Origin: Antedon mediterranea
Lineage: Eukaryota; Echinodermata; Crinoidea; Comatulida; Antedonidae
Direction of reading: 5' to 3'
Assembly: GCF_964355755.1 (NCBI RefSeq)
Contig: NC_092672.1
Span: 16,924,501 to 16,988,500 of the forward strand
DNA length: 64,000 nucleotides
In this document: positions 1 through 63,301 of the stretch, piece after piece
Layout of the letters: each line of letters starts with the position of its first letter
How positions within the stretch are numbered: the stretch's first letter is position 1
Made by a program: the position numbers and the translations under genes
Notes under the pieces: model-generated
Told to the model about the DNA's origin: nothing
The model's input: only the letters and a program-made list of their open reading frames with translations
The model's database searches: none

Positions 1-168
1 CTATCATAATCTTATTTCTTAAAGCTACCCATTTTTCTATACTTGTTTCTTTATTGTTATATGTTTCACATTCAATGTTATATAACATATTGCTTTTAAA
101 TGAATTCCATAAAGATTTACCCACTGGCTTATTTAGTGCAGATAACATTTTTATTCTATAAATAGTAA

Positions 169-3992: not shown

Positions 3993-4030
3993 GTTTAAAT
4001 CACAATAATATATCATTTAAACAATTAATA

Positions 4031-7000: not shown

Positions 7001-7420
7001 TGCAAATATATTGTGCTAACATCATCTTAAAGAGCCATAGTAAAAAAAATAAAAGGGTCGAAATTTTGCAATTTTTCGAAAATTTTCCTGCGGGGATCAT
7101 AGGAAGTTTTTTGAAAAACAAACAAAAAATAAACAAAATTTCCACCTTTTAAAATTAAATAATTAGGCTATAATATTGCCATTTATACAGATATATTTTG
7201 CTAACATCATCTTATAGAGCCATAGTAACTAGTTATGTCATCAAATAAAAGGGTCGAAATTTGGCCATTTTCCGAAAATTTTCCTGCGGGGGACAATAGG
7301 AATTTTTTTCGAAAAATGGACAAAATTTCCACTTTTTAAAATTCGAAAATTATGCTATAATATTGCCATTTATGCAAATATATTGTGCAAACATCATCTT
7401 TTAGAGCCATAGTAACTAGT
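4031..7420 (+). repeat. AT-rich ~186-bp satellite array, block 1
   Basis: Monomers of about 185-188 bp (one type is about 133 bp) each carry a GAGCCATAGTAACTAGTTAT box, a TTCCTGCGGGGGACCATAGG box, a GCTATAATATTGCCATTTAT box and a CTAACATCATCTTATAGAG box. Successive monomers differ in diagnostic ways, for example AAAGCGTCGCAATTTTGAC, GAAAGGATCGACATTTGG, GTTGAAAGTTGGCC and a short AAAAATGGCACCATT type, and the order recurs, giving a higher-order repeat. Short ORFs here are satellite translations, not genes. The last 14 bp (7407-7420) are the left TSD of LINE copy 2. Confidence 0.92.
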
Positions 7421-7960
7421 TTTTTTTTTTCTCTCTTTTGTGGCGCAAACACCACTTTTATTCACATTCATATTATCTCATATTACATAAAATCGTATTA
7501 TTTAACTTGTAAATGTCGTTACAGTTCATAAGTAACATTTTTACATATATGAATTCTGTATTACTCCTTTTTTCATTAATTTTCTTATATTTTGTTATAC
7601 ACTTGACAGGATCATCATTATCATCTATCCCGTTTTAAAATAGTTCACACATTTTCATTTGTTTGTTTTCATTTTACAACCCGGATTATACAATATATTT
7701 ATATACATGATAAAAAAAAACAATAATAGCTCAGTACCACCAGTAACCCGTATCACTGTAATTCTTTTTCAGTTAATCGTATCAAATTAGAAATTATACT
7801 ATCATAATATTATTTCTTAAAGCTACCCATTTTTCTATACTTGTTTCTTTATTGTTATATGTTTCACATTCAATGTTATATAACATATTGCTTTTAAATG
7901 AATTCCATAAAGATTTACCCACTGGCTTATTTAGTGCAGATAACATTTTTATTCTATAAA
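7421..7960 (-). other. LINE copy 2: ORF2 C-terminus, 3' UTR and poly(A), minus strand
   Basis: Read on the minus strand from about 7960, the frame encodes a C-terminal tail containing NKPVGKSLWNSF and EKWVALRNN, ending in a TAA at 7796-7794. About 360 bp of non-coding 3' UTR follow, then the poly(A) (T run at 7421-7430). This tail supplies the part of ORF2 that is missing from the end of the plus-strand segment at 11862, as the twin-priming model predicts. Confidence 0.82.
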
Positions 7961-7966
7961 TAGTAA

Positions 7967-10900
7967 ATGCTGCAAACGTGTAAATATAATCTATTACGAA
8001 AAGGTCTTGACTGCAAAATTGTTAAAAAGTTAACTGATATTGATGGAAGATATATATTTCTTAATTTAATGATAAATGAAAAGGAACTGGACATTATAAA
8101 TATTTATGCTCCTAATGAAAGCAAAAATAGAAGTGCATTCTTTAGGACCATACACAAATGTTACAATGACTTTGATGGAGGGAAGGGTAATTCTATCATT
8201 CTAGGTGGAGATCTGAATTGCATCATGAATAGTGACATTGACCAAAAAGGTAGCGCAAATAGGTCTGATAAATCTGTTTTTACGATTAAAAACCTAATGA
8301 AAAATTTAAATTTAAATGATATTTGGAGATCCAAAAACATGAATAAGCGACAATTTACGTGGCGTAAGAGATTTAACAACATTTTCCGTAGGCTGGATTA
8401 CTGGTTAATATCAGAAGATCTCTTTTCAAATGGAGATGTTTTAGCCTGTGACATTCGTCCAGCTATTCTCACAGATCACCAGGCAGTATCAATTAAAATA
8501 GATTTGCATGAAAAAAAACGCGGTCCTGGTTTATGGATGTTCAACAATAGCTTTCTGAAAGATGAAACATTTACAAAATTAGTAATTAAAATAATTGATG
8601 TTTCAATACTAAAAAATAATAGAGAACCTGTAAGTGCAAGTTTGCTATGGGAGCTTGTAAAAACAAAAATAAAAGAATTTTCAATTGCATACGGAAAACA
8701 AAAAAATAAAAACCAGAATAAAAAGAAAGAAAAATTACAAAAACAAATAAAAAACTTAAATGAAACAATCATGAATAGTGACATTGACCAAAAAGGTAGC
8801 GCAAATAGGTCTGATAAATCTGTTTTTACGATTAAAAACCTAATGAAAAATTTAAATTTAAATGATATTTGGAGATCCAAAAACATGAATAAGCGACAAT
8901 TTACGTGGCGTAAGAGATTTAACAACATTTTCCGTAGGCTGGATTACTGGTTAATATCAGAAGATCTCTTTTCAAATGGAGATGTTTTAGCCTGTGACAT
9001 TCGTCCAGCTATTCTCACAGATCACCAGGCGGTATCAATTAAAATAGATTTGCATGAAAAAAAACGCGGTCCTGGTTTATGGATGTTCAACAATAGCTTT
9101 CTGAAAGATGAAACATTTACAAAATTAGTAATTAAAATAATTGATGTTTCAATACTAAAAAATAATAGAGAACCTGTAAGTGCAAGTTTGCTATGGGAGC
9201 TTGTAAAAACAAAAATAAAAGAATTTTCAATTGCATACGGAAAAAAAAAAAATAAAAACCAGAATAAAAAGAAAGAAAAATTACAAAAACAAATAAAAAA
9301 CTTAAATGAAACAATTATGAATACTCAAAATTGTGATATAACCATTGAAAATAAAATTGAAAACAAAAAAATAGAGCTTGAAAACATTTATAATGTAGAA
9401 GCAAAAGGCGCGCAAATTAGGTCCAGAGTAAAATGGATAGAGGAAGGCGAGCGGAATACAAAATACTTTCTTGGGTTAGAAAGATCCAAAAGTAAAAAGA
9501 AACACATAAAAAGTTTAATTACTAAAGATGGGAGCTTAGCAACGAGCCCAATTGATATTTTAAAGGAACAAATACAACATTTCGAAGGATTATACGCAAA
9601 AAATGTCATAAACCCTGGAAAAATTAATAAATACCTTTGTAATTCTATTATAAACAAGCTTTCAGAAATAGAAAAAAAAAATTGTGAAGGTTACGTCACT
9701 ATTGATGAGTGTAAAAAGGCCATTTCAATGATGGAAAAAAATAAAACACCTGGATCGGATGGTCTAAGTGTTGAATTTTATGTGTTCTTTTGGAATAATA
9801 TTAAACATTTAATTTGCGATGCGTTAAATGAAAGTTATAATTCTCAAGAATTATCCTTTTCGCAAAAACGAGGTGTAATCACCCTTTTGTTCAAGGATGG
9901 AGAAAGAGAAAATTTGAATAATTGGCGTCCCATTACCCTCTTAAACACCGATTACAAAATTCTTGCACATGTATTAAGTAACAGACTTAAAATGGTTATT
10001 AAATCAATAGTAAGTTCAGACCAAAAAGGTTATATAAAAGGCCGTTTCGCTGGTGAAAACATTCGGTTAATAGAAGACCTGCTTTATTATACAGAGTGTA
10101 ATGATATCGAAGGGGCAATAATTACCGTAGATTTTAAGAAGGCTTTTGACTCTATTAGTAGAGATTTTATGTTCAATGTTCTAGAAAAGTTTAACTTTGG
10201 AATGTTCTTTTGTAACTGGGTAAAAGTATTATACAATAACGTTGAATGTGTCACAGTTAACAATGGTTGGGTTTCAAACAATTTTAAAATGGAAAGAGGT
10301 ATTAGACAAGGTTGTCCTCTATCTGCTCTGTTATTCATTTTAGTGGTTGAAGTAATGGCATCTAGAATAAGAAACAAAGATGACTATAAGGGTATTAAAC
10401 TTCCAAATAATGAAAATAACATAAAAGCTAGAATAAGCCAATTAGCCGATGATACTGTTTTGTATGTTGGTAATGACAAAAGTATTGCGTCAGCAGTCAG
10501 TGTAATTGAACGTTTTTGTGAAGTATCTGGAATGACACTAAATAAAAAAAAAACCAATGCTTTTTGGATTGGTAAATAGAAGAACAGAATAGATAGACCT
10601 TTAGAATTAAATTGGGTAAAACACCCGATCAAAATTTTAGGCATATATGTAGGGTATAATACAGAAGAATGTACCAGAAAAAACTGGGATGTTAAATTAA
10701 TAGAGCTAGAAAAGACTTTAAAACAATGGAATGCTAGAAATCTCTCAATTTTTGGTAGAATAATAATCCTGAAAAGTCTTGCACTATCTAAATTAACATA
10801 TGCTGCAAATATCACTGATGTTCCAAAATATGTATATACACAAGTTACAAATCTAATATATAATTTTATTTGGAACAATAAAAGGGAAAAGATAAAAAGA

Positions 10901-11868
10901 AAAACTCTAATTGGTGATGTTGAGATGGGAGGCATTAAAATGCCTGATTTTACTCTTCATGTTAACGCACTCATGTGTGGCTGGTTAAAAAGAATTATGA
11001 ATGATGATGGTGCTAAATGGAAAAATATTCCAATGTATTATATTAAAAAAATATGTGATGTTAATGTTTTACTTAATATGTCATGTTATAACATTATTGA
11101 TGTTAATTCTGATAAAATTCCACTGTTTTACAAAAATATGATAAAAGCCTACATAAATTATAACAGAATCTCTAAAAAAAAACCTGAAACTTATAACGAT
11201 ATAATTAATGAGCAACTGTGGGGAAACCACTACGTTAAACTAAAAAAAAATCACTTTTCTACAAGCATTGGATTGACAGTGGCATTATCAGTATTAAAGA
11301 CATTGTTAATAAGAACACTTTTTTAACATCAAACGAAATACTGGTGAAACTACAATGTAAAACAAACTGGTTAAATGAGTATTTGTGCATTATTAAGGCA
11401 ATACCAATTCAATGGAAACGTATTATTAAGGAGGTAGATATTTTCAATTGTGATGATAATGATGAATTAGTTGGGACCAAGTATGAGATTAATACTACCA
11501 AACTAATATACTCATGGTTTGTGAAAGAATATTTCATTACTCCAATGTCACAACTAAAATGGGAAGAGTACTTCAATGATAACAACATTGATTGGAAAAC
11601 TTCTTGGTTACGGAAAGTATGTAAAATGAAAGATAAGAAACTAGCACAATTCAATTATAAGATGTTACATAGAATACTGCCTACCAACAAACGGCTGTAT
11701 CAGTGGAAAGTTAAGGAAACACAAACGTGTGACAAATGTGGAGAAATTGAAAATGAAAATCATTTGTTTTTTAGTTGTAGATTTATTCAGAAATATTGGA
11801 GAAAAATGCTTAGTATCTTTGTAAGTTTAAATCACAATAATATATCATTTAAACAATTAATACCATAG
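7967..11868 (+). pseudogene. LINE ORF2 remnant (APE endonuclease + reverse transcriptase), copy 2
   Basis: An open frame of 870 codons runs from 7967 to a TAG at 10577-10579; the same frame resumes without shift (10925-11326). A frameshift near 11277 separates the final portion (11344-11868). Endonuclease motifs YAPNE, GGDLN, RLDYW and TDH are present, and the C-terminal half of the endonuclease plus linker is duplicated in frame. RT motifs are TPGSDG, NNWRPI, VDFKKAFDS, GIRQGCPLS and LADDT; the catalytic box reads LADD where YADD or FADD is usual. The C-terminal zinc knuckle (CDKCG...H...C, near 11728-11780) is intact. The start is an artefact of truncation. One stop and one frameshift make it inactive. 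Confidence 0.9.
8226..9317 (+). repeat. In-frame 546-bp tandem duplication inside LINE ORF2 (copy 2)
   Basis: Units 8226-8771 and 8772-9317 match almost base for base; the visible differences are isolated substitutions and poly-A length. The reading frame stays open through both units, giving a protein with two copies of the distal endonuclease segment. Confidence 0.9.
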
Positions 11869-14800
11869 TAACTAGTTATGTCAAAATATAAAAGCGTCCC
11901 AATTTTGACATTTTTTGAAAATATTCCTGCGGGGGACCACAGGAATTTTTTCGAAAAATAACCAAAATTTCCACCTTTAAACTTCAATAATTAGCCTATA
12001 ATATTGCCATTTATGCACATATATTGTGTTAACATCATCTTATAGAGCCATAGTAACTAGTTATCATGTCAAAAAATGAAAGGATCGACATTTGGCAATT
12101 TTTTCGAAAATTTCCCTGAAATTCCATAGAGATTTTTTCGAAAAATTGACAAAATTTCAAATTTCTACAATTCGAAAATTATGCTATAATATTGTAATTT
12201 ATACAAATATATTGTGCTAACATCATCTTATAGAGCCATAGTAACGAATTATGTCAAAAAATAAAAGGGTTGAAAGTTGGCCATTTTTCGATAATTTTTC
12301 TGCGGGGGACCATAGTATTTTTTTTCGAAAAATGGACAAAATTTCCAATTTCTAAAATTCGAAAATTATGCTATAATATTGCCATTTATCCAAATATATT
12401 GTGATAACATCATCTTATAGAGACATAGCAACTAGTTATGTCAAAAAAATAAAAGGGTCGAAAAATGGCACCATTTTCCACTTTTTAAAATAAAATAAAA
12501 AAGCTATAATATTTCCATTTATACAGATATATTTTGCTAACATCATCTTATAGAGTCATAGTAACGAATTTTATCAAAAATTAAAAGGGTTGAAATTTGA
12601 CAATTTTTCGAAAATTTTTCCTTCGGGGGACCATAAGAATTTTTTTCGAAAATGAACTAAATTTCCAATTTCTAAAATTCGAAAATTATGCTATAATATT
12701 GCCATTTATGCAAATATATTGTGCTAACATCATCTTATAGAGCCATAGTAAAAAAAATAAAAGGGTCGAAATTTTGCAATTTTTCGAAAATTTTCCTGCG
12801 GGGATCATAGGAAGTTTTTTGAAAAACAAACAAAAAATAAATAAAATTTCCACCTTTTAAAATTAAATAATTAGGCTATAATATTGCCATTTATACAGAT
12901 ATATTTTGCTAACATCATCTTATAGAGCCATAGTAACTAGTTATGTCATCAAATAAAAGGGTCGAAATTTGGCCATTTTCCGAAAATTTCCCTGCGGGGG
13001 ACAATAGGAATTTTTTTCGAAAAATGGACAAAATTTCCACTTTTTAAAATTCGAAAATTATGCTATAATATTGCCATTTATGCAAATATATTGTGCAAAC
13101 ATCACTTATAGAGCCATAGTAACTAGTTATGTCAAAAAATAAAAGCGTCGCAATTTTGACATTTTTGGAAAATATTCCTTCGGGGGACCACAGGAATTTT
13201 TTCGAAAAATAACCAAAATTTCCACCTTTAAACTTCAATAATTAACCTATAATATTGCCATTTATGCACATATATTGTGTTAACATCATCTTATAGAGCC
13301 ATAAATAGTAACTAGTTATCATGTCAAAAAATGAAAGGATCGACATTTGGCCATTTTTCGAAAATTTTCCTGCGGGGGACCACAGGAATTTTTTCAAAAA
13401 AATAACCAAAATTTCCACCTTTTAAAATTCAATAATTAGGCTATAATATTGCCATTTATGCACATATATTGTATTAACATCAACTTATACAGACATAGTA
13501 ACGAGTTATGTCAAAAAATAAAAGGGTCGAAATTTGGCAATTTTTGCGAAAATTTCCCTGAAATTCCATAGAGATTTTTTCAAAAAATTGACAAAATTTC
13601 AAATTTCTACAATTCGAAAATTATGCTATAATATTGTAATTTATACAAATATATTGTGCTAACATCATCTTATAGAGCCATAGTAACGAATTATGTCAAA
13701 AAATAAAAGGGTTGAAAGTTGGCCATTTTTCGATAATTTTTCTGCGGGGGACCATAGTATTTTTTTCGAAAAATGGACAAAATTTCCAATTTCTAAAATT
13801 CGAAAATTATGCTATAATATTGCCATTTATCCAAATATATTGTGATAACATCATCTTATAGAGACATAGCAACTAGTTATGTCAAAAAAATAAAAGGGTC
13901 GAAAAATGGCACCATTTTCCACTTTTTAAAATAAAATAAATATGCTATAATATTTCCATTTATACAGATATATTTTGCTAACATCATCTTATAGAGTCAT
14001 AGTAACGAATTATATCAAAAATTAAAAGGGTTGAAATTTGACAATTTTTCGAAAATTTTCCTACGGGGGACCATAAGATTTTTTTCGAAAATGAACTAAA
14101 TTTCCAATTTCTAAAATTCAAAAATTATGCTATAATATTGCCATTTATGCAAATATATTGTGCTAACATCATCTTATAGAGCCATAGTAAAAAAAATAAA
14201 AGGGTCGAAATTTTGCAATTTTTCGAAAATTTTCCTGCGGGGATCATAGGAAGTTTTTTGAAAAACAAACAAAAAATAAACAAAATTTCCACCTTTTAAA
14301 ATTAAATAATTAGGCTATAATATTGCCATTTATACAGATATATTTTGCTAACATCATCTTATAGAGCCATAGTAACTAGTTATGTCATCAAATAAAAGGG
14401 TCGAAATTTGGCCATTTTACGAAAATTTCCCTGCGGGGGACAATAGGAATTTTTTTCGAAAAATTGACAAAATTTCCACTTTTTAAAATTCGAAAATTAT
14501 GCTATAATATTGCCATTTATGCAACTATATTGTGCAAACATCATCTTATAGAGCCATAGTAACTAGTTATGTCAAAAAATGAAAGCGTCGCAATTTTGAC
14601 ATTTTTGGAAAATATTCCTTCGGGGGACAACAGGAATTTTTTCGAAAAATAACCAAAATTTCCACCTTTAAACTTCAATAATTAGCCTATAATATTGCCA
14701 TTTATGCACATATATTGTGTTAACATCATCTTATAGAGCCATAGTAACTAGTTATCATGTCAAAAAATGAAAGGATCGACATTTGGCCATTTTTCGAAAT

Positions 14801-19203: not shown

Positions 19204-20698
19204 GTCAACAAATTGTGCAATCAATGACAAACCAAAAGGTCGCCGACTACACATTTCGGAAAAAGAGCCAATCCATTACAATGAACTCTAAAAGCGCATT
19301 GAAGATAAAAGATGATGTGGTCAATGTAGATCCTTTACTTCTATTTCAACGACTTGTAACTGCCGGCACAAGATGCGATAATGTATCAGATATATTTAGA
19401 TTGTTTGAATCACCAGATATGATGAGGTCTGCAAATAAAGCTAGTTTAGCTGATAGTTTGTGGTCAACAGCAATCGAGGTTGCTCCAGAACCTCCTGATC
19501 AAATTCAGTACGTCTTAGATGGAGGAGCACTACTTCATAACATTCCATGGACAAGAGGGGCTTCAGGGGTGACATTATGAGAGTATACACTAAATATGTT
19601 TCTCACAAATATGGAAAATCCATTGTTGTTTTTGATGGGTACGATAACTCACTAAGTACAAAAGACTGTACACATACAAGGAGAAGTGGTGGTGGTGTTG
19701 TAGCTGTACACTTTGACCAATCTATGACCTTACAAACCAAAAAAGAAGAATTTCTGTCAAACGTTCAAAACAAACAAAGATTCATTAAGATTTTGGGAAA
19801 TAGTCTTGAAAAAGAAGGTTGTACTGTTCACCACGCAGAAGCTGACGCTGACTATCTTGTGTCGAAGATGGCTCTGTCCTACGCAGAACAAATAGGCACG
19901 GTTGTCATCGCAGATGATACAGATATCCTGGTCCTTCTTATCCACCATGGTGGTCACACCAAACATAATGTATGGTTCAAGCCAAACCAAAGGAAAGAAA
20001 CTAAAAAGGTGCAACGATGTTGGAACATTGCGGCAACAAGACTTGACCTTGGCAGCAATGTTTGTAAATATATCCTATTTTGTCACGCGTTCCTTGGATG
20101 TGACACGACATCGCGATTTTTTGGTATTGGGAAAATCAAAGCAGTAACTAAAGTAAGAAGTGACTGTTTCTTTTCTGAACAAGCCAAAGTGTTTATGACT
20201 TGTAAGGAAAACAGACAGGAGGCAATTGCAGCGGGTAATAACGCCATTTTGTCTTTGTATGGTAGCAGCGATAATGAAAACCTAGATGAATTGAGGTTTC
20301 GTAAATTTCATGAAAAGACTACATGCAGTACTAAAGCAGTTCATCCACGTTCTTTACCCCCAACGGCATCAGCGGCAACGTATCATAGTCTAAGGGTGTA
20401 CCAACAAGTTCAAGTTTGGCTTGGAAATGAAGAAAATGTACCTCCAGATAAATATGGATGGAAGATCAGCCAAGGCAGGATGATACCATATTTGACGGAC
20501 AACCCCCCAGCACCACAATTGCTCCTACAAATCATAAGATGCAAATGCAAAACAGGCTGCTAAAATATGAAATGCAGCTGTAGGAACAATGGATTAGATT
20601 GCTCCATGGCATGTAGTGAGTGTCGAGGTGTATGCGCAAACATTTCACTAGATGATAATGAATATACCGATTCTGAAGATTCAACAATGGGTTTGTAA
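19204..20698 (+). pseudogene. Academ-like element gene, second fragment: XPG/FEN1-like nuclease + Cys-rich C-terminus
   Basis: The first portion (19204-about 19560) continues the fragment at 16795 and ends in YVLDGGALLH. A frameshift near 19560 moves the frame to the segment beginning at 19566. That segment has nuclease landmarks in XPG/FEN1 order: VVFDGY, then HAEADADYL, then IADDTDIL, then GCDTTSRFFGIGK, which matches the helix-two-turn-helix style of XPG nucleases. The C-terminus is CKCKTGC, then an in-frame TAA (20561-20563), then a continuing cysteine-rich stretch (CSCRNNGLDC, CSECRGVC) to a TAA at 20696-20698. Frameshift and stop make it a pseudogene. In life it would be the nuclease or transposase component of the element. 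Confidence 0.78.
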
Positions 20699-26570: not shown

Positions 26571-28086
26571 CTCTCTCTCGCTGATCTATCTCTCTCTCTC
26601 GCTGATCTATCTCTCTCTCGCTGATCTATCTCTCTCTCGCTGATCTATCTCTCTCTCGCTGATCTATCTCTCTCTCGCTGATCTATCTCTCTCTCGCTGA
26701 TCTATCTCTCTCTCTCGCTGATCTATCTCTCTCTCGCTGATCTATCTCTCTCTCGCTGATCTATCTCTCTATCGCTGATCTATCTCTCTCGCTGATCTAT
26801 CACTCTCTCTCACTGATCTATATCTCTCTCTCTCGCTGATCTATCTATCTCTCTCTCGCTGATCTATCTATTTCTCTCTCGCTGATCTATCTATCTCTCT
26901 CTCTCGCTGATCTATCTATCTCTCTCTCGCTGATCTATCTATCTCTCGCTGATCTATCTCTCTCTCGCTGATCTATCTCTCTCTCGCTGATCTATCTCTC
27001 TCTCGCTGATCTATCTCTCTCTCGCTTATCTATCTCTCTCTTGCTGATCTATCTATCTCTCGCTGATCTATCTCTCTCTCGCTGATCTATCTATCTCTCT
27101 CTCGCTGATCTATCCTGCTCTCTCTCTCGCTGATCTATCTATCTCTCTCTGATCTATCTCTCTCTCGCTGATCTATCTATCTCTCTCTCGCTAATCTATC
27201 TATCTCTCTCTCGCTGATCTATCTATCTCTCTCGCTGATCTATCTATCTCTCTCTCTCGCTGATCTATCTATCTCTCTCTCTCTCGCTGATCTATCTCTC
27301 TCTCGCTGATCTATCTATCTCTCTCTCGCTGATCTAACTCTCTCTCGCTGATCTATCTATCTCTCTCTCGCTGATCTATCTCTTTCTCGCTGATCTATCT
27401 ATCTCTCTCTCGCTGATCTATCTATCTCTCGCTGATATATCTATCTCTCTCTCTCTCATCTATCTCTCTCTCGCTGATCTATCTCTCTCTCGCTGATCTA
27501 TGTATCTCTCTGTCGCTGATCTATCTATCTCTCTCTCGCTGATCTATCTGTCTCTCGCTGATCTATCTGTCTCTCGCTGATCTATCTCTCTCTCGCTGAT
27601 CTATCTATCTCTCTCTGGCTGATCTATCTTTCTCTCGCTGATCTATCTATCTCTCTCGCTGATCTATCTCTCTCTCGCTGATCTATCTATCTCTCTCGCT
27701 GATCTATCTATCTCTCTCTCGCTGATCTATCTCTCTCTCGATGTTCTATATATCTCTCTCTCGCTGATCTATCTCTCTCGCTGATCTATCTATCTCTCTC
27801 TCGCTGATCTATATCTCTCTCGCTGATCTATCTCTCTCGCTGATCTATTTCTCTGTCGCTGATCTCTCTATCTGTCGCTGATCTATCTCTCTCTCGCTGA
27901 TCTATCTCTCTCTCGCTGATCTATCTCTCTCTCGCTGATCTATCTCTCTCTCGCTGATCTATCTCTCTCGCTGATCTATCTCTCTCTCGCTGATCTATCT
28001 CACTCTAGCTGATCTATCTCTTTCTCGCTGATCTATCTCTCTCTCGCTGATCTATCTCTTTCTCGCTGATTTATCTCTCTCGCGCT

Positions 28087-28161
<75 letters not shown>

Positions 28162-29529
28162 ATCTCTCTCTCGCTGATCTATCTCTCTCTCGCTGATCTA
28201 TCTCTTTCTCGCTGATCTATCTCTCTCTCGCTGATCTATCTCTCTCTCGCTGATCTATCTCTCTTTCGCTGATCTATCTCTCTCTCTCGTTGATCTATCT
28301 CTCTCTCGCTGATCTATCTCTCTCTCTCGCTGATCTATCTCTCTCTCGCTGATCTATCTATCTCTCTCTCTCGCTGGTCTATCTTTCTCTCGCTGATCTA
28401 TCTATCTCTCTCGCTGATCTATCTCTCTATCGCTTATCTATCTATCTCTCTCGCTGATCTATCTATCTCTCTCTCGCTGATCTATCTATCTCTCTCTCGC
28501 TGATCTATCTCTCTCTCGATGTTCTACCTATCTCTCTCTCGCTGATCTATCTCTCTCGCTGATCTATCTATCTCTCTCTGTCGCTGATCTATATGTCTCT
28601 CGCTGATCTATCTCTCTGTCGCTGTTCTATCTCTCTATCGCTGATCTCTCTCTCTCTCGCTGATCTATCTCTCTCTCGCTGATCTATCTCTCTCTCGCTG
28701 ATCTATCTCTCTCTCGCTGATCTATCTCTCTCTCGCATATCTATCTCTCTCTCGTTGATCTATCTCTCTCGCTGATCTATCTCTCTCTCTCTCTCGCTGA
28801 TCTATCTATCTCTCGCTGATCTATCTATCTCTCTCTCGCTGATCTATCTTTCTCTCGCTGATCTATCTCTCTCTCGCTGATCTATCTCTCTCTCGCTGAT
28901 CTATCTCTCTCTCGCTGATCTATCTCTCTCTCGCTGATCTATCTCTCTCTCGCTGATCTATCTCTCTCGCTGATCTATGTATCTCTCTGTCGCTGATCTA
29001 TCTATCTCTCTCTCGCTGATCTATCTCTCTCTCGCTGATCTATCTGTCTCTCGCTGATCTATCTCTCTCTCGCTGATCTATCTATCTCTCTCTCGCTGAT
29101 CTATCTTTCTCTCGCTGATCTATCTATCTCTCTCGCTGATCTATCTCTCTCTCGCTGATCTATCTATCTCTCTCGCTGATCTATCTATCTCTCTCTCGCT
29201 GATCTATCTATCTCTCTCTCGCTGATCTATCTCTCTCTCGATGTTCTATATATCTCTCTCTCGCTGATCTATCTCTCTCGCTGATCTATCTATCTCTCTC
29301 TCGCTGATCTATATCTCTCTCGCTGATCTATCTCTCTCGCTGATCTATTTCTCTGTCGCTGATCTCTCTATCTGTCGCTGATCTATCTCTCTCTCGCTGA
29401 TCTATCTCTCTCTCGCTGATCTATCTCTCTCTCGCTGATCTATCTCTCTCGCTGATCTATCTCACTCTAGCTGATCTATCTCTTTCTCGCTGATCTATCT
29501 CTTTCTCGCTGATTTATCTCTCTCTCGCT

Positions 29530-29587
<58 letters not shown>

Positions 29588-30849
29588 GCTGATCTATCTC
29601 TCTCTCGCTGATCTATCTCTTTCTCGCTGATCTATCTCTCTCTCGCTGATCTATCTCTCTCTCGCTGATCTATCTCTCTCTCGCTGATCTATCTATCTCT
29701 CTCGTTGATCTATCTCTCTCTCACTGATCTATCTCTCTCTCTCTCTGATCTATCTCTCTCTCGCTGATCTATCTATCTCTCTCTCGCTGGTCTATCTTTC
29801 TCTCGCTGATCTATCTATCTCTCTCGCTGATCTATCTCTCTATCGCTTATCTATCTATCTCTCTCGCTGATCTATCTATCTCTCTCTCGCTGATCTATCT
29901 ATCTCTCTCTCGCTGATCTATCTCTCTCTCGATGTTCTACCTATCTCTCTCTCGCTGATCTATCTCTCTCGCTGATCTATCTATCTCTCTCTGTCGCTGA
30001 TCTATATCTCTCTCGCTGATCTATCTCTCTGTCGCTGTTCTATCTCTCTATCGCTGATTTCTCTCTCTCTCGCTGATCTATCTCTCTCTCGCTGATCTAT
30101 CTCTCTCTCTCTCTCGCTGATCTATCTATCTCTCGCTGATCTATCTATCTCTCTCTCGCTGATCTATCTTTCTCTCGCTGATCTATCTCTCTCTCGCTGA
30201 TCTATCTCTCTCTCGCTGATCTATCTCTCTCTCGCTGATCTATCTCTCTCTCGCTGATCTATCTCTCTCTCGCTGATCTATCTCTCTCGCTGATCTATGT
30301 ATCTCTCTGTCGCTGATCTATCTATCTCTCTCTCGCTGATCTATCTCTCTCTCGCTGATCTATCTGTCTCTCGCTGATCTATCTCTCTCTCGCTGATCTA
30401 TCTATCTCTCTCTCGCTGATCTATCTTTCTCTCGCTGATCTATCTATCTCTCTCGCTGATCTATCTCTCTCTCGCTGATCTATCTATCTCTCTCGCTGAT
30501 CTATCTATCTCTCTCTCGCTGATCTATCTATCTCTCTCTCGCTGATCTATCTCTCTCTCGATGTTCTATATATCTCTCTCTCGCTGATCTATCTCTCTCG
30601 CTGATCTATCTATCTCTCTCTCGCTGATCTATATCTCTCTCGCTGATCTATCTCTCTCGCTGATCTATTTCTCTGTCGCTGATCTCTCTATCTGTCGCTG
30701 ATCTATCTCTCTCTCGCTGATCTATCTCTCTCTCGCTGATCTATCTCTCTCTCGCTGATCTATCTCTCTCGCTGATCTATCTCACTCTAGCTGATCTATC
30801 TCTTTCTCGCTGATCTATCTCTTTCTCGCTGATTTATCTCTCTCTCGCT

Positions 30850-30903
<54 letters not shown>

Positions 30904-32599
30904 GCTGATCTATCTCTCTCTCGCTGATCTATCTCTTTCTCGCTGATCTATCTCTCTCTCGCTGATCTATCTCTCTCTCGCTGATCTATCTCTCTCTCGC
31001 TGATCTATCTATCTCTCTCGTTGATCTATCTCTCTCTCACTGATCTATCTCTCTCTCTCTCTGATCTATCTCTCTCTCGCTGATCTATCTATCTCTCTCT
31101 CGCTGGTCTATCTTTCTCTCGCTGATCTATCTATCTCTCTCGCTGATCTATCTCTCTATCGCTTATCTATCTATCTCTCTCGCTGATCTATCTATCTCTC
31201 TCTCGCTGATCTATCTATCTCTCTCTCGCTGATCTATCTCTCTCTCGATGTTCTACCTATCTCTCTCTCGCTGATCTATCTCTCTCGCTGATCTATCTAT
31301 CTCTCTCTGTCGCTGATCTATATCTCTCTCGCTGATCTATCTCTCTGTCGCTGTTCTATCTCTCTATCGCTGATTTCTCTCTCTCTCGCTGATCTATCTC
31401 TCTCTCGCTGATCTATCTCTCTCTCGCTGATCTATCTCTCTCTCGCTGATCTATCTCTCTCTCTCTCTCTCTCGCTGATCTATCTCTCTCTCGCTGATCT
31501 ATCTATCTCTCTCTCGCTGATCTATCTTTCTCTCGCTGATCTATCTTTCTCTCGGTGATCTATCTATCTCTCTCGCTGATCTATCTCTCTATCGCTGATC
31601 TATCTATCTCTCCCGCTGATCTATCTATCTCTCTCTCGCTGATCTATCTCTCTCTCGATGTTCTACCTAACTCTCTCTCGCTGATCTATCTCTCTCGCTG
31701 ATCTATCTATCTCTCTCTGTCGCTGATCTATATCTCTCTCGCTGATCTATCTCTCTCGCTGATCTATCTCTCTGTCGCTGTTCTATCTCTCTGTCGCTGA
31801 TCTCTCTCTCTCTCTCTCGCTGATCTACCTCTCTCTCGCTGATCTATCTCTCTCTCGCTGATCTATCTCTCTCGCTGATCTATCTCTCTCGCTGATCAAT
31901 TTCTCTCTTGCTGATCTATCTCACTCTCGCTGATCTATCTCTCTCTCGCTGATCTATCTCTCTCTCGCTGATCTATCTCTCTCTCGCGGATCTATCTCTC
32001 TCTCGTTGATCTATCTCTCTCGCTGATCTATCTATCTCTCTCTCGCTGATCTATCTCTCTCTCGCTGATCTATCTGCCTCTCGCTGATCTATCTCTCTCT
32101 CGCTGATCTATCTATCTCTCTCTCGCTGATCTATCTTTCTCTCGCTGATCTATCTATCTCTCTCGCTGATCTATCTCTCTCTCGCTGATCTATCTATCTC
32201 TCTCGCTGATCTATCTATCTCTCTCTCGCTGATCTATCTATCTCTCTCTCGCTGATCTATCTCTCTCTCGATGTTCTATATATCTCTCTCTCGCTGATCT
32301 ATCTATCTCTCTCTCGCTGATCTATATCTCTCTCGCTGATCTATCTCTCTCGCTGATCTATTTCTCTGTCGCTGATCTCTCTATCTGTCGCTGATCTATC
32401 TCTCTCTCTCGCTGATCTATCTCTCTCGCTGATCTATCTCTCTCTCGTTGATCTATCTCTCTCTCGCTGATCTATCTCTCTCGCTGATCTATCTCTCTCT
32501 CGCTGATCTATCTCACTCTAGCTGATCTATCTCTTTCTCGCTGATCTATCTCTCTCTCGCTGATCTATCTCTTTCTCGCTGATTTATCTCTCTCTCGCT

Positions 32600-32677
<78 letters not shown>

Positions 32678-32965
32678 GCTGATCTATCTCTCTCTCGCTG
32701 ATCTATCTCTTTCTCGCTGATCTATCTCTCTCTCGCTGATCTATCTCTCTCTCGCTGATCTATCTCTCTCTCGCTGATCTATCTCTCTCTCTCGTTGATC
32801 TATCTCTCTCTCGCTGATCTATCTCTCTCTCTCGCTGATCTATCTTTCTTTCGCTGATCTATCTATCTCTCTCTCTCGCTGGTCTATCTTTCTCTCGCTG
32901 ATCTATCTATCTCTCTCGCTGATCTATCTCTCTATCGCTTATTTATCTATCTCTCTCGCTGATCT
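26571..32965 (+). repeat. CTCTCTCGCTGATCTAT minisatellite, left part of array A
   Basis: Hundreds of copies of a 17-bp unit and length variants (inserted ATCT or CTCT steps of 4 or 2 bp). Longer (CT)n runs occur near 28091, 29530, 30850 and 32605. Larger tandem units are visible: 28981 onward repeats at 30301 onward, 1320 bp apart, including the rare variant CGATGTTCTATATATC. No open frame of note; pyrimidines lie on the plus strand throughout. Confidence 0.95.
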
Positions 32966-33004
32966 CACGGCAGTTTCAAACGCGATATCCGAGACACAAA
33001 GTGT
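32966..33004 (+). promoter_or_regulatory. Left terminal RSS-like signal: heptamer CACGGCA, 21/23-bp spacer, ACA-rich nonamer
   Basis: Heptamer CACGGCA is at 32966-32972. The nonamer homologous to the right end is ACACAAAGT (32994-33002), giving a 21-bp spacer; shifting the register two bases to ACAAAGTGT (32996-33004) gives 23 bp. The RAG consensus nonamer is ACAAAAACC and the consensus heptamer CACAGTG; the first three bases CAC, the most important for RAG cleavage, are kept. Inferred transposase-binding and cleavage site. Confidence 0.7.
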
Positions 33005-33626
33005 TTACAACGCGCTTTTGATTGATACGCCTGGCGCGAGCCTTGAGCAGCTATTTATAGCCCACCAACATCGAGCGAAATGTTTACATTAGCTAGCTAT
33101 AAACAGAGAGTGTATCATACGAAGTAAATACAGTCTTACAATGACAAATTAATAAAGTTTTCCTCGAATCTTACAGTGTTTGCTTTATTATTGTATTTTG
33201 TATTAGGGAAAATTGTCTAGGATTAAAAAATATTATTAAAAAAGCGAAATTTTAACGATGTTTGCGATAGTTTCAAAAGCTGAAAATATACATAAATAGC
33301 GCCCTCACGGCGAAAGTTTATCGTCGCGGTAAGTTCAAGCTTTTGATCGTCTGATAGCAAATCTCTGCAATTTTTTCGAGCAACACCGTTAATTCCAAGA
33401 GAAAGCGGAGACTTTATTCTTTATTTAGCTCAAAATTCAGGCTGACGTCTACTTTCAAATTGATTTGAGCTAAATTTGAAATTGACTTATTTCTGTTCAA
33501 AATTCCAGTGATTTTATAGGTAAAAATAGGCCTAGGGCAAAGTTAATTATATATTTTTTAAAGAATTGTGTATTGGTTTTGCATTGACTGTATGTGGTAT
33601 GTTACTGTTATTTATTGTCTTGTGAA
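33005..33626 (+). promoter_or_regulatory. 5' leader of the RAG1-like transposon (untranslated, promoter presumed)
   Basis: No ORF. It has a TATTTATAG box near 33050 and two GC-containing patches (GCCTGGCGCGAGCC near 33030 and GCGCCCTCACGGCGAAAG near 33301) in an AT-rich background. The transcription start cannot be placed from sequence alone. Confidence 0.4.
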
Positions 33627-36600
33627 ATGGAGTACCATACATATGCATTGAGTAATTTATGTCGTGTATGTGGTGTCAAGTTAACACGAAATCAGCGAAA
33701 ATTTGACCTAACTAAAGTAAAAGATAGCGTCCTGACATTTTTAAATATCGATTTAACCCATGAAAACAAAGATGTACATCCACCATTCATTTGCAAGAAC
33801 TGTCAATTTTCAAGCTATAACAAGGTTAGCACAACTCAAAGGTACATCTGGAGACAACACACACAACAATCATGTTTCACATGTTATTTATTATCAGAAC
33901 AGTCAAAACCAGGTAAGAGACTAAAACAAGTAAAACTCAACACATTATTTTCTGAAACAGAATGTGACGTTATTCCATCAAAATTTACAGTCAATGACAA
34001 AATCAATTCTGAACCTTTCATTTGCCAAATATGCAACTCGATTTTGTCTTTCAACAGTCTTGAGTCAAACTGTTCACATCACTATTGTTCTAGTTGTATG
34101 TATAATTTGTTTAGTACCCTCCATGTTAACGTATGTTCATGTCTTGTGTGCGCAAAGCCAATGCACATGCTGGAATTTAAACCCGCCTCCCAAATTGTAA
34201 TAGAGTCTCTAAAATCACTAGAATTACAATGCTCGTGCAATAAGTTCATAAAATACTCTCAACATCAGAGACATATTTGTGAACACCAGACAACTAAAGA
34301 AGTGGTTTATCATAATGTTTCAAAAGCTGTATCAGTGTTAGAGAAATCACTAGAAGATAGTCATGTCTCCCAAACAATACAAACGTTTGCAGAAAAAGTT
34401 GTTTACAATCAACTAAAGAAAAGTAAGGAAATGCTGATTGCAACAAATGGTCGGGTGAGTGCTTTAAAACAAATTCTGTAATTATCATATTGCATGTTAT
34501 AAAAAGTAGATTAATATTATTATAACAGAATTGTTAGCATAAAACATACAAATACAATTCTTATCTACAGCCAGCAAAGATTGCTATCATACCAAACACC
34601 AAAGTCTCAAGTGATAAGGCCAGTTCTCGAACTGTTTCAAGACGAGCAAATAGCATCAGCAGCATCATAAAATCAGTTGGCAATAGTGAGGCTGGTGATT
34701 TCCATCAAAAAGTGTACTCAGCCAAACATATGAGTCAAGCGGTCTTAAAAGCAGCCAACATAGCATCAACTTCGTCTATAGATACAGATAAGGCTCTGGC
34801 AATGGTGTCAGACTGCCATCTGGCATGGAACCAGCTACGAAAGCTAAGAAGGTAAACAAACAATTATGTGATTAAATAAAACCATGCATGAATACAGGCA
34901 TTTTAGACACAGTCAAGTATGTCTAGTAATAAAGCGAGACTACATTATTAATCCTTTTTATGTACTAGATATGTGGAGAAGGGGACAATACCATCAGAGA
35001 AAAGGATGCGGCAGCGGCAAAATGATCTCATTGGGGATTATTTTGAATCCACAATGGAAATGCTATGTTTTAGGTCTGAGACGTCCCCAGACGGGATAGA
35101 ATTAAGATCAACGCCTACTGTCAAACTGAAAAACATTAAAAAAGTTGTATTTTCATATCTTGATGAACACTCAAGGTACGCTGAAGTTAAATTTTAATAT
35201 GTGCTTACAAAGTGTAGAACTTACTTTTTAGGACTTTACTTTTGTTCCTATGGATTTGCTATGGAAATAAAAGTTAAAAGAAATTAATTAAAAACTGAAT
35301 TAATATTTACTAAATTTTTTTACAGACTGAACAACCTATCTCCCAATAATAACGAGATTTGGATAAAGTTTGGCGGGGATAAGGGAGGTGGAAGTACCAA
35401 ATTTGAGGTACAGATATGTAGCCTCGCCAAACCAAATTCAATTAACAACATCATCGTCGTACTAATATTTGATGCCCCTGACATGATGTTTAATATTAAC
35501 CGGACTCTTCCGGAAGTGGCCCACCAAGTTGTTGCTTTGAACGGGGAAAAATGGCGGTAAGAATACAACTAGTATATCAACTTAATTATGTGGATGCGTA
35601 TACAAGTAATAAAATAAAAATATATGTATAATTTCTTTCAGCAATTACACACTGAGAGTTTTCTGTTTTGGGGACTATGAGTATCTAACAAAACTCTATG
35701 GATTAAATGGACCAAATGGTAAACTATTAAATTATTTTATCATCATTTAATTTATACAAAATCTTTCTAAGCCAATTTTATTTATACTGTATTACTGCAT
35801 ATTTTAGCATTTTTAAACATTGTGAAAAAATTGGAATACTTTTAGCTCGATACTGCTGTCTCTTTTGTGAAAAACCAAAAGCAGAAATGCAATTAAAGGC
35901 ACCACCCGCCAAACAGCGATCATTGGCTTCAATCAGAGCCAACTATAGAATGTTTATGGAAGATGGCGGAATTGAAAGCCGATCTAAGGATGTTTCCATG
36001 AGCGTTGTTAATAATCCCTTAGTATCAATTGAGGTAGATCATGTAAGTACATCAGTTTTGTTTTTAATTATCTTTATATTAGAGAAACAAATGTACTTAC
36101 TTCATTATATGGCACTGTTGGTATTAAAATTTATATCTTTTAGGTGTCTGTTCCTAGCCTGCACTTGTCATTGGGCATATTCAAGAAGCTCTTTGATATG
36201 CTTGAGACGGAGGCGCACAGCATAGATTGCCTCATATATTCCCTAAGGAAAAATGGAGAACTTGATGACACTTCTGAATCAAAGTTTGATAAAATAATTC
36301 AACATCAGATCCAAACACAAATTGATATCAAAGAAAAGATTGAAGAAAAGAAATTAAAGTTGACTGAGATGGAGGATGCAATGCCATTAATCTATCTTAA
36401 AGGAAGTGTTGATGGTAGCATCATTACCAATGTGGGAAAGATAGTCAGATTGAGAGAAGAGATTGAGTCACTGGTAAGTTACTCAAACAATAAATGACAT
36501 AGATGCGTCTTGCCAGACACATACTCTAAAGACAAAACTTGTATTATATTTTATTTTACAGACAAAATGCATGGAAAATGGGCTTCCATTTGGAACGGGT

Positions 36601-37507
36601 CCAATTGTCACATCACTGGAGCGTGTGCTACAAAAAAATCGCATCCAACGGCAAGCCTATCATGGTAAATCATTTATTGGTAACCATGTTCATAAATGTT
36701 GTCAGGTAAATTAACTATTCTTTTAATTGATATTGTTTCAACTGTTAATTATTAAAATTGTAGTTTTTAAAATGTATATTTGTTTTTAATAGGACCATGT
36801 TAGGAATGAACTAGTGAATGCTCCACTACATGAAATGAAAATTCAAGAAGCTGAGATTCCTATCGGAAAAATTCAGCTAATTGACAAAAGAGTAAAAGAA
36901 TTGGTCACCAAGTACGATGCACTCCTTTCAAAATTTTCTAGGGTTCACAATAACTTGAATCATTCAAAACCTGTCACAGATGTTGATATTCAAGGAAATG
37001 GTAATGTAATTATGCTTACCTTTCAAGGTATTCCTTAGACATGCCATTGTTTCTTTTCCTACAACACACTGCAACTGTTTCTTTTCTCTTCTACAAAAAA
37101 AATTCAGATAAAGCCATAAAAGACTTTATGGAGGAATATCGAAAAACCAACAAAAGTATATCTCCAAAATTACATATGCTCGAGGAACATGTCATTCCCC
37201 AATTAAAGGCTTGGAGATTTGGTCTGGGACTGGTTAGCGAGCAAGGTGGGGAGTCTATTCACGCCGCGCTTAATAAAAGGAAAAGAACAGTTGCTGGGAT
37301 GCATGACAGACTTGGACAGTTAACATCCATGATGCGGTCACATGCAATTACCACTCAGCCATGCATAATAGAAGAAATAGTTGAACCCAAAAGAAGAAAA
37401 ATTGGTAACAATTTACACTTTATTGATTACACTATTTGTGCTTTTTAGCTCCCTGCTCACCAAAAATTAAATAAACCTGTTTATATTTTTCAGAAAAAGA
37501 AGAATAA
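33627..37507 (+). CDS. RAG1-like transposase (RAG1L), 11 exons, 937 aa, intact
   Basis: Predicted exons: 33627-34454, 34571-34851, 34969-35175, 35326-35556, 35642-35718, 35846-36042, 36144-36473, 36562-36705, 36793-37000, 37108-37404, 37494-37507. All introns (85-150 bp) are GT-AG and phases match, giving 938 codons with stop. The ATG at 33627 is chosen because CRVCG follows ten residues later, as at other N-termini of this type. Domains: zinc-binding N-terminus (C12, C15, C56, C59, C83, C86); C3HC4 RING at 123-165 followed by a C/H cluster (192-210), as in RAG1; DDE-type core with D457 (GGDKGGG), D527 (FGDYEYL) and E883 (SEQGGES). C546-x2-C549 and H857-x4-H862 correspond to the RAG1 zinc ligands C727/C730 and H937/H942; the D527-to-C546 distance of 19 equals D708-to-C727. 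A charged helix lies at about 658-686 and a KRRK nuclear signal at 929-932. Predicted role: cut and join the element ends in the nucleus. Exon 10 could instead read through to a stop at 37446-37448. Confidence 0.88.
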
Positions 37508-37623
37508 AGTACACGACAATGAATACGAAATAAAAGAAAATATAGGCTTACTGATAAATCTGACGGAGTGCCATCTTCTTCTTTATTATGGATTCTCTTA
37601 TGAACCACACTTGCATCAATAAA
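37503..37623 (+). promoter_or_regulatory. Polyadenylation signals of the RAG1-like gene
   Basis: AATAAA occurs at 37503-37508, overlapping the stop codon, and at 37618-37623. The second, about 110 bp after the stop, is the better placed. No transcript evidence is available. Confidence 0.5.
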
Positions 37624-38653
37624 GTAGTCGTACTTGTTTGTGTTGGTGGTATTTTTGGAACCTGTAGTACAATTTTTGAATTATAAATATTTATCATCAT
37701 TATTTAAAAAAATGGTGGACTAGCGATTGAAATACATGATGAAATATTATATTATAATTAGGACTATACTGTCAAAATTAAAATCAAAATTTTATTTTTT
37801 ATTCTACAAATGCAATGCTGTTGCTGCCATAGTTTAGTAATATTCAAGCCATAGGAAGATAGACTATGATATTTTCACATTTTCTACTGTAGAATAAATT
37901 AGGCCCTCATGAAAGCTAGTTAGTAAGTATACCTATCCTCCTAGGCCTACCTATGTCTTGATGGTACCATATTAAAAAATTAGGCCTAGCCTAGCTAGAT
38001 AGAGCTGTTACTAAAGCCTGGCCCTGCTGATTTCCCCTCTTAACGACATATACTTGGGCTAGGCCTACTAAGAGTATATTATTCTAGGCCTAGGCCTATA
38101 CAGTATTTATTTTTCGTGGCTTAAACCTAGTACTAGGTGACAAACCTTTGTTAGGCCTAGGCCTTTAGCAGCACACCCACGTGTGCAAAACAGGCAAATG
38201 GGCCCCGACTTTCTGTGTATATAATTATTAAACTGGATTAGACGTCAGCGAGATTTTTTAAATATTGTTTATCAAGTTTTTGAATTTTCACATCGACTAG
38301 GCGCCGATGTTTATGTAAATTGCAAAAAAAATATATAACCTCACCATTACCCTGTAATTAAACTGCTATTTTTTACTGTTTTTTGTCGCAAAATAGACGT
38401 AAGATTTCAATACTCATATCTCGTGAAGTCTTGAGAAACGGAGTGACCGCTGGCTTCGAATATCAATTACACGCCTTCTTCTTCGAATATAACATGAATA
38501 TTCATTAAATTTTCAATTATAACACTGTCTATTGGTCAGTTTATTCCCTCTCTTTTACCAGGGTAGTAAAAATAGTCTTCCGGGTATTTAAACTAGCGCC
38601 CTCTATAACATAAAATAAGAAAAAGCGAGCATCGAAACTATAGAGGGCTCACC
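37508..38653 (+). other. 3' non-coding region of the RAG1-like transposon
   Basis: About 1.1 kb without a credible ORF on either strand, rich in AGGCCTAGGCCT words around 37920-38170. Near the right end GCCCTCTATA (about 38596) and TATAGAGGGC (about 38639) form a subterminal inverted pair. The terminal 700 bp resemble, inverted, the sequence at 63302-64000 (shared words CCAGGCTTTAG, ACCCGGAAG, GTGAGCCCTCTAT at matching distances from the tip). No RAG2/kelch-like sequence is seen. Confidence 0.7.
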
Positions 38654-38681
38654 ACTTTTTGTCTCGCTGGAAACTGCCGTG
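38654..38681 (-). promoter_or_regulatory. Right terminal RSS-like signal: heptamer CACGGCA, 12-bp spacer, nonamer ACAAAAAGT
   Basis: Read inward on the minus strand from 38681: heptamer CACGGCA (38681-38675), spacer GTTTCCAGCGAG of exactly 12 bp (38674-38663), nonamer ACAAAAAGT (38662-38654). Seven of the first eight nonamer positions match the RAG consensus ACAAAAACC. Inferred 12-RSS-like transposase site. Confidence 0.75.
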
Positions 38682-50118
<11,437 letters not shown>

Positions 50119-50728
50119 TATAACTAGTTATGTCAAAAATAAAAGGGTCGAAATTTGGCCATTTTCCGAAAATTTCCCTTCAGGGGACGACAGGAATTTT
50201 TTCGAAAAATAACCAAAATGTCTACCATTTAAAATTCAATAATTAGGCTATAATATATCCATTTATGCACATATATTTTGTTAACATCATCTTATAGAGC
50301 CATAGTAACTAGTTAGGTCAAAAAATAAAAGTGTCGAAATTTGGCCATTTTCCGACAATTTCCCTACGGGGGACCACAGGAATTTTTTCGAAAAATAACA
50401 AAAATTTCCACTTTTTAAAATTCGAAAATTATGCTATAATATTGCCATTTATGCAAATATATTGTGCTAACATGATCTTATAGAGCCATAGTAACTAGTT
50501 ATGTCAAAAAATAAATGGGTCGAAATTTGGCCATTTTTCGAAAAATTTTCCTGCGTGGGACCATAGTAATTTTTTTTCGAAAAATGACACAAATTTCCAC
50601 CTTTCAAAATTCAATAATTAGACTATAATATTGCCATTTATTGACATATGTTGTGTTAACATCATCTTATAGAGCCATAGTAACTAGTTATGTTAAAAAT
50701 AAAAGGTTTGAAATTTTGCCGTTTTTGC
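50119..50728 (+). repeat. AT-rich ~186-bp satellite array, block 5
   Basis: Three to four monomers on the same strand as before, beginning mid-monomer at the minisatellite junction. The block is the first copy of a tandem duplication whose second copy starts at about 52429 (offset 2284 bp). Confidence 0.9.
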
Positions 50729-61479: not shown

Positions 61480-63301
61480 CTCTCTCTAGCTGATCTATCT
61501 CTCTCTCTCGCTGATCTATCTCTCTCTCTCGCTGATCTATCTCTCTCTCGCTGATCTATCTCTCTCTCGCTGATCTATCTCTCTCTCGCTGATCTATCTC
61601 TCTCTCGCTGATCTATCTCTCTCTCGCTGATCTATCTCTCTCTCTCGCTGACCTATCTCTCTCTCGCTGATCTATCTATCTCTCGCTGATCTATCTCTCT
61701 ATCGCTGATCTATCTCTCTCGCTGATCTATCTCTCTCTCTTACTGATCTATCTCTCTCTCTCTCTCTCGCTGATCTATCTATCTCTCTCTCTCTCGCTGA
61801 TCTATCTATCTCTCTCTCGCTGATCTATCTATCTCTCTCTCACTGATCTATCTCTCTCTCGCTGATCTATCTCTCTCTCTCGCTGATCTATCTCTCTCTC
61901 GCTGATCTATCTCTCTCTTGCTGATCTATCTATCTCTCGCTGATCTATCTCTCTCTCGCTGATCTATCTATCTCTCTCTCGCTGATCTATCTATCTCTCT
62001 CTCTCGCTGATCTATCTATCTCTCTCTGATCTATCTCTCTCTCTCGCTGATCTATCTATCTCTCTCTCGCTGATCTATCTATCTCTCTCTCGCTGATCTA
62101 TCTATCTCTCTCGCTGATCTATCTATCTCTCTCTCGCTGATCTATCTATCTCTCTCTCTCGCTGATCTATCTCTCTCTCGCTGATCTATCTCTCTCTCCC
62201 TCGCTGATCTCTCTCTCTCTCGCTGATCTATCTCTCTCTCTCGCTGATCTATCTCTCTCGCTGATCTATCTCTCTCTCGCTGATCTATCTCTCTCTCTCA
62301 CTGATCTATCTCTCTCTCCTTGATCTATCTCTCTCTCGCTGATCTATCTCTCTCTCTCTCGCTGATCTATCTCTCTCTCGCTGATCTATCTATCTCTCTC
62401 TCGCTGATCTATCTTTCTCTCGCTGATCTATCTATCTCTCTCGCTGATCTATCTCTCTATCGCTGATCTATCTATCTCTCTCGCTGATCTATCTATCTCT
62501 CTCTCGCTGATCTATCTATCTCTCTCTCGCTGATCTATCTCTCTCTCGATGTTCTACCTATCTCTCTCTCGCTGATCTATCTCTCTCGCTGATCTATCTA
62601 TCTCTCTCTGTCGCTGATCTATATCTCTCTCGCTGATCTATCTCTCTCGCTGATCTATCTCTCTGTCGCGGTTCTATCTCTCTGTCGCTGGTCTCTCTCT
62701 CTCTCGCTGATCTATCTCTCTCTCGCTGATCTATCTCTCTCTCGCTGATCTATCTTTCTCTCGCTGATCTATCTCTCTCGATGATCTATCTCTCTCTCGC
62801 TGATCTATCTCACTCTCGCTGATCTATCTCTCTCTCGCTGATCTATCTCTCTCTCGCTGATCTATCTCTCTCTCGCTGATCTATCTCTCTCGCTGATCTA
62901 TCTATCTGTCGCTGATCTATCTCTCTGTCACTGATTTCTCTCTCTCTCGCTGACCTATCTCTCTCGCGCTGATCTATCTCTCTCTCGCTGATCTATCTCT
63001 CTCTCGCTTATCTATCTCTCTCTCGCTGATCTATCCCTCTCTCGCTGATCTATCTCTCTCGCTGATCTATCTTTCTCTCGCTGATCTATCTCACTCTCGT
63101 TGATCTATCTCTCTCTCGCTGATCTATCTCTCTCTCGCTGATCTATCTCTTTCTCGCTGATCTATCTCTCTCTCGCTGATCTTTCTCTCTCTCTCTCTCT
63201 CTCTGATCTATCTCTCTCTCGCCGATCTATCTCTCTCTCCCTCGCTGATCTATCTCTCTCTCGCTGATCTATCTCTCTCTCGCTGATCTATCTGTCTCTT
63301 T
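61480..63301 (+). repeat. CTCTCTCGCTGATCTAT minisatellite, array B
   Basis: Same unit and strand as array A and the same left junction with satellite (AAAATTTAC|TCTCTCT), so its left edge is a duplicate of that of array A. It ends where the second RAG1-like element begins, after CTGTCTCTTT. Confidence 0.95.

Follow-up and report, generated by a model that had tools for sequence, protein, structure and literature searches.

Transposons of the Chapaev superfamily are characterized by target-site duplications of 3-4 bp, CAC/GTG ends and a transposase with C(2)C, LH and H(4)H motifs, as set out in the passages on this superfamily in PMC4079192. The domain DUF1280 has been equated with Chapaev and placed beside RAG1 in clade II in the corresponding section of PMC3985635, and a CHAPA domain together with a RING finger is reported by Kapitonov and Koonin 2015 (PMC4411706) for two Chapaev subgroups, described there as distant relatives of Transib and RAG1. 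Chapaev elements with CHAPA and RING go back to Kapitonov and Jurka 2007, as cited in PMC4411706 and PMC4079192. The relevant passages of PMC4411706 further give 5-bp duplications as typical of Transibs, describe the RING as missing in TransibSU transposases, assign the described RAG2-bearing elements to TransibSU and make no mention of a Chapaev with RAG2. Here we analysed a stretch of 64,000 nucleotides from the crinoid Antedon mediterranea (contig NC_092672.1, positions 16,924,501 to 16,988,500), referred to in its whole length as the window. Positions 32966-38681 of this window (5,716 bp) are occupied by a transposon with one 11-exon gene. It is almost certainly a complete, autonomous and recently mobile cut-and-paste transposon of the Chapaev superfamily, with one transposase that combines a CHAPA-type zinc region, a RING, a zinc finger, DUF1280 and a DDE core of RAG1 fold with a CC/HH site. 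The element is a new family of a group of transposons that is already known and is distinct from the elements in which RAG1 and RAG2 are carried together.

An earlier sequence-only reading of this DNA had proposed a terminally inverted element with exactly these limits, and the analysis of the ends bears this out. Both ends consist of perfect 12-bp inverted repeats (CACGGCAGTTTC at 32966-32977 and GAAACTGCCGTG at 38670-38681). The window contains exactly two matches to this 12-bp end with at most one mismatch, and none of 100 shuffles gave two. Comparison of flank lengths from 1 to 12 showed that 4 bp (ATCT) is the sole matching length at the window copy. The transposon is inserted into an array of a 19-bp minisatellite, of which the pieces 26571-32965 and 38686-50121 remain on either side. 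Arrays of this minisatellite (CTCTCTCTCGCTGATCTAT) cover 26571-50121, split by the transposon, and 61480-63299. An empty-site junction, in which the flanks meet at a single ATCT, is present 31+38+8 = 77 times across the three array pieces, or 91 and 68 times with shorter and longer flanks, whereas joined flanks keeping both ATCT copies occur 0 times at each flank length tested. The array offers a clean paralogous empty site and, with it, a 4-bp duplication; a zero-bp duplication within the repeat array was rejected on the basis of 0 versus 77 empty-site matches.

To the count of near-identical copies and empty sites, for which the sequence-only reading had called, the copy search contributed four full-length copies. 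This search covered the 354-Mb genome of 18 contigs and listed 20 matching stretches, namely eight near-identical copies, one short match inside the contig-1 copy and eleven diverged or short pieces. The eight near-identical copies comprise the four full-length ones and a further four that are partial and extend into masked sequence. The three full-length copies outside the window measure 5,718, 5,766 and 5,735 bp, with the target duplications GGTC, AGTA and GTGC; all four copies thus have a 4-bp duplication (ATCT, GGTC, AGTA, GTGC), and a 5-bp match is false at all four. They differ pairwise by 13-39 substitutions (0.23-0.68%), and each retains the 937-amino acid reading frame and GT-AG borders at all ten introns. 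Because four intact, near-identical copies sit in different 4-bp duplications, the family has moved recently; for the present day we infer activity, so that the earlier impression of an element that still looks active holds as recent activity. Diverged pieces with 83-91% identity are also present. The core encoded in the window (residues 383-937) differs in 3 of 555 residues from the annotated A. mediterranea protein P0001, and at precisely these three positions another copy on this contig has the P0001 residues. A search for DUF1280 gave at least 53 matches in this genome and none in any of 14 control genomes. In the contig-1 copy, about 42 extra bases (L010:3113-3155) are an inverted duplicate of the adjoining 41 bp.

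Joining the 11 exons from the ATG at 33627 to the stop codon at 37505-37507 yields 937 amino acids without an internal stop, and all ten predicted introns have GT...AG borders, in agreement with the single unbroken gene proposed before. Within exon 1 the CHAPA-type zinc region has the ligands C12, C15, C56, C59, H78, C83 and C86; it is followed by the RING (C133-C175) and a zinc finger (C202, C204, H216, C218). A GRP motif straddles the junction of exons 1 and 2; in RAG1 such a motif precedes the core. Using Pfam, the protein matched DUF1280 (PF06918) with an E value of 6.4e-18 and 65.6 bits against a cut-off of 25. Residue conservation was scored on ten relatives having the N-terminal part, two of which are cut short at the C-terminus. 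C12, C15, C56, C59, C83, C86, the RING cysteines, C202, C204, H216 and C218 are identical in all ten and H78 and H151 in nine. In the rows without a gap, identity was found for D457 in 10 of 10, for D527, C546 and C549 in 9 of 9 and for E883, H857 and H862 in 8 of 8. Of the features recognized by the sequence-only reading, the RING ligands are thus identical in 9 or 10 of 10 relatives, and the DDE triad and the CC/HH site in every row without a gap (8 to 10 rows). We take D457, D527, E883, C546/C549 and H857/H862 to be the equivalents of D600, D708, E962, C727/C730 and H937/H942 of RAG1.

The relationship to RAG1 was compared at the level of sequence and of predicted structure. In a single-sequence search of the PDB the RAG1 RING/zinc region was matched with an E value of 0.0016, and with a profile of 18 relatives this value was 1.7e-12. 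Among the best 60 of 226 rows of the profile search every best stretch lies in the N-terminal part; with phmmer a core stretch around the CC site was present at a sub-threshold score, and Pfam gave no match to the RAG1 catalytic core. Foldseek and VIA-align both rank RAG1 first for the predicted structure, with about 14% identity in the structural alignment. According to this model the catalytic core has the RAG1 fold, and it is in the predicted structure that the kinship of the core to RAG1 shows. The earlier designation as a RAG1-type protein stands for fold and domain order; the sequence of the core is unmatched in Pfam and in those best 60 PDB rows. Relatives occur in starfish, sea urchins, a hemichordate, amphioxus, a coral and hydrozoans, and none of 24 stretches in viral contigs that fit a pattern encodes a relative. 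A tree was built from the window protein together with 26 of the 37 related proteins and is midpoint-rooted only; in it the window protein groups with the Antedon rows P0001 and P0036 (100/99), and these three sit inside an echinoderm group of eight rows (100/100).

The assignment to Chapaev is based on the combination of 5'-CAC...GTG-3' inverted repeats, a 4-bp duplication, DUF1280, the C(2)C, LH and H(4)H motifs and the DDE triad, and on the RING downstream of an N-terminal zinc region, as in the subgroups with CHAPA and RING. Several points weigh against this interpretation. The splice pattern is a prediction from DNA, nonetheless kept by all four copies. The placement uses published hallmarks instead of a direct comparison with a named Repbase Chapaev, the RING of the window protein stays below the Pfam cut-off, and the protein misses the Pfam model of the RAG1 importin-binding region (RAG1_imp_bd, CHAPA-like). 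Among five relatives scanned in Pfam, DUF1280 was found in 5, RAG1_imp_bd in 3 and the RING model in 4 (above the cut-off in 3). The CHAPA-type C/H pattern is kept in 9-10 of 10 relatives, a comparison made by pattern. With the known Chapaev elements that contain CHAPA and RING the window element shares the CAC/GTG ends, the 4-bp duplication, DUF1280, C(2)C/LH/H(4)H and a RING after a zinc region of putative CHAPA type; it differs as a new family in a crinoid, with 11 exons and with inner boxes that show a 9-bp offset asymmetry. Chapaev3 belongs to the same superfamily and has CAC/GTG ends, but makes 3-bp TWA duplications according to the excerpted account in PMC4079192, whereas the duplications found here are 4 bp long and of varied sequence.

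The RAG1-like RING/zinc region and the RAG1 fold of the core would also fit a ProtoRAG/RAGL (TransibSU) element that has lost its RAG2-like gene. Like vertebrate RAG1 and amphioxus BbRAGL (ProtoRAG), the window protein has a RING with a zinc region and a DDE core of RAG1 fold with a CC/HH site. The leader of 661 bp and the trailer of 1,174 bp (0.66 and 1.15 kb in the sequence-only reading) overlap ten frames of at least 40 amino acids apart from the exon-1 frame. No RAG2-like gene was seen in them, in line with the earlier statement: the longest frame has 97 amino acids, and the five of ten frames that were scanned gave no Pfam match. The element differs from RAG1/BbRAGL (ProtoRAG) in this respect and in its 4-bp instead of 5-bp duplication. 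With Transib (HzTransib) it has in common a single gene and a RAG1-fold transposase; Transib ends, too, are CAC. The canonical Transib transposase is described in the section concerned of PMC4411706 as having only an identifiable core, whereas the window protein has further domains, and the duplication is typically 5 bp there but 4 bp here. A loss of RAG2 from ProtoRAG is very improbable in view of the 4-bp duplications at four sites, the presence of DUF1280, the missing match to the RAG1 core in Pfam and among the best 60 of 226 PDB-profile rows, and the RING, which that account lists as missing in TransibSU transposases; the duplications, DUF1280 and the RING led us to reject this reading. 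Since the described RAG2-bearing elements are TransibSU, a different branch, the absence of RAG2 is expected here and is not evidence of a loss. The proposal of a RAG2-independent RAG1-like lineage consequently survives in that the protein is of RAG1 type and RAG2 is not visible, but a ProtoRAG lineage is not supported and the hallmarks are those of Chapaev; the 3-bp TWA duplication of Chapaev3 and the 5-bp duplication of Transib/ProtoRAG are both missing.

Membership in the N-RAG-TP group of Aplysia, which may itself be Chapaev, is rather unlikely. N-RAG-TP is described in the passage concerned of PMC8355894 as a mollusc mobile element resembling the RAG1 N-terminus, but the window element continues from its N-terminal part into a full core. 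A domesticated host gene is extremely improbable. The multi-exon gene is intact and the sources of its relatives name only an "uncharacterized" or "unnamed" protein; against this stand four near-identical full-length copies with shared inverted ends and a 4-bp duplication each of their own, and for the window copy the ends and duplications refute a host gene. The locus is best described as a Chapaev transposon. It offers an echinoderm case of an intact, recently mobile RAG1 relative that consists of one protein and shows a RAG1-like order of domains, in which RAG2-independent cutting and the role of CHAPA and RING are directly testable.

Both ends of this Chapaev element contain an inner box (CGAGACAMAAAGTG), whose offset is 24 at the left end and 15 at the right end. 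The two boxes agree in 13 of 14 bases in the window copy and in all 14 in the contig-1 copy. Read as heptamer, spacer and nonamer, the ends are CACGGCA-21-ACACAAAGT and CACGGCA-12-ACAAAAAGT. Two further element types could be compared. L054 is a 2,757-bp element with the ends CACGGCTGTTTC and the duplication AGCA; it is probably non-autonomous because only its two ends resemble the window element (55 and 42 bp, 84-86%). A separate 6.78-kb DUF1280 family (L057, L058), the second Chapaev family, has the ends CACAGCTGTTTC and CACAGCTGTTCC and the duplications AGGA and GATG. The spacers are 22/11 in L054 (offset difference 11) and 23/13 in the 6.78-kb family (offset difference 10); they were read from alignments, and another choice of the A-rich box shifts them by 1-2 bp. 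In all three element types that were readable the two ends thus have unequal box-to-tip distances, the difference being 9 bp for the window element, 11 bp for L054 and 10 bp for the 6.78-kb family. The long spacer is located on the 5' side of the gene in both gene-bearing families and at the homologous end in L054. The 5' end of the 6.78-kb family (L057:7538-7687) has at least 40 genome matches (40 of 81 candidates were scored), many of about 90%, which suggests a large non-autonomous family.

For the window element, random internal segments reached the inner-box match in 2 of 1000 cases at k=12 and in none of 1000 at k=14, 18 and 22. Other results speak against the asymmetry. In a different null, Markov pairs reached the 13/14 match of the window element in 3 of 2000 cases and internal pairs in 8 of 1955. 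For L054 none of 1000 segments equalled its match at k=12, whereas 26, 149 and 294 did so at k=14, 18 and 22. The match of the 6.78-kb family is weaker than that of the window element: at k=22 it was reached by 7-8 of 1000 segments, and at k=12-18 by 64-90. A 6.56-kb DUF1280 region, 99.94% identical between two contigs (L055/L056), has no matching ends at its limits; when it was scanned for CAC/GTG ends flanked by 4-bp duplications, only a weak 9/12 candidate emerged, for which both copies have an identical TTTA, and with its ends unreadable it was left out of the spacer comparison. Statistically, the window element is well supported, L054 has mixed support and the 6.78-kb family weak to moderate support, and since the ends of L054 are related to those of the window element, these two are not independent cases. 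The end asymmetry resembles the one-turn difference of 12/23 recombination signals, which with so few elements is suggestive and not proof. We therefore raise only tentatively the possibility that Chapaev elements with a RAG1-fold CHAPA-RING transposase use ends similar to recombination signal sequences (CAC heptamer, spacer and A-rich box), with spacers whose lengths differ by about one helical turn and the long one on the 5' side of the gene. The excerpts of the Chapaev literature searched do not mention an inner-box offset asymmetry; an earlier published description is possible.

In the proposed mechanism of transposition a transposase dimer would bind the CAC tips and the inner boxes and would pair a long-spacer end with a short-spacer end. 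It would cut at the CAC tips, probably via a hairpin as known from RAG1 and Transib, and insertion would occur with a 4-bp stagger and without a need for RAG2. If Chapaev ends are indeed of the two-part kind raised above, transposons with a single protein and no RAG2 would have both the domain plan of RAG1 and a 12/23-like rule of pairing, with the window element as an intact and testable example; if the asymmetry is real and functional, the 12/23 rule of antibody-gene recombination would have a counterpart outside the Transib/RAG branch.

Table. Features of the Chapaev element and its insertion site (window positions).
Feature	Position	Strand	Remarks
Left target-site duplication ATCT	32962..32965	.	
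Left terminal inverted repeat CACGGCAGTTTC	32966..32977	+	perfect match with right end
Left inner (subterminal) box CGAGACACAAAGTG	32990..33003	+	its ACACAAAGT 21 bp past CACGGCA
Exon 1	33627..34454	+	CHAPA-type zinc region, RING, zinc finger
Exon 2	34571..34851	+	DUF1280 match begins here
Exon 3	34969..35175	+	
Exon 4	35326..35556	+	catalytic Asp 1, D457 (GGDKGG)
Exon 5	35642..35718	+	catalytic Asp 2, D527 (FGDYE)
Exon 6	35846..36042	+	C(2)C site C546/C549
Exon 7	36144..36473	+	LH motif (L613-H614), long helices
Exon 8	36562..36705	+	
Exon 9	36793..37000	+	
Exon 10	37108..37404	+	H(4)H site H857/H862, catalytic Glu E883 (GES)
Exon 11	37494..37507	+	includes stop codon 37505-37507
Right inner box CGAGACAAAAAGTG	38653..38666	-	its ACAAAAAGT 12 bp past CACGGCA, read from the right end
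Right terminal inverted repeat	38670..38681	-	perfect match with left end
Right target-site duplication ATCT	38682..38685	.	

Outside the transposon, a 340-amino acid open frame at 19541-20563 showed no Pfam match at E 0.001. In the region 1-14579 about 6.8 kb are duplicated in tandem (copies at 1-6747 and 7799-14579, 97.9% identical), and both duplicates hold a retrotransposon-like coding stretch; in the frame 7967-10576 a reverse transcriptase domain (E 6.7e-32) is present together with a stretch that is repeated internally. A satellite of 186-187 bp and variants of 132-133 bp form many arrays scattered over positions 4031-61480.

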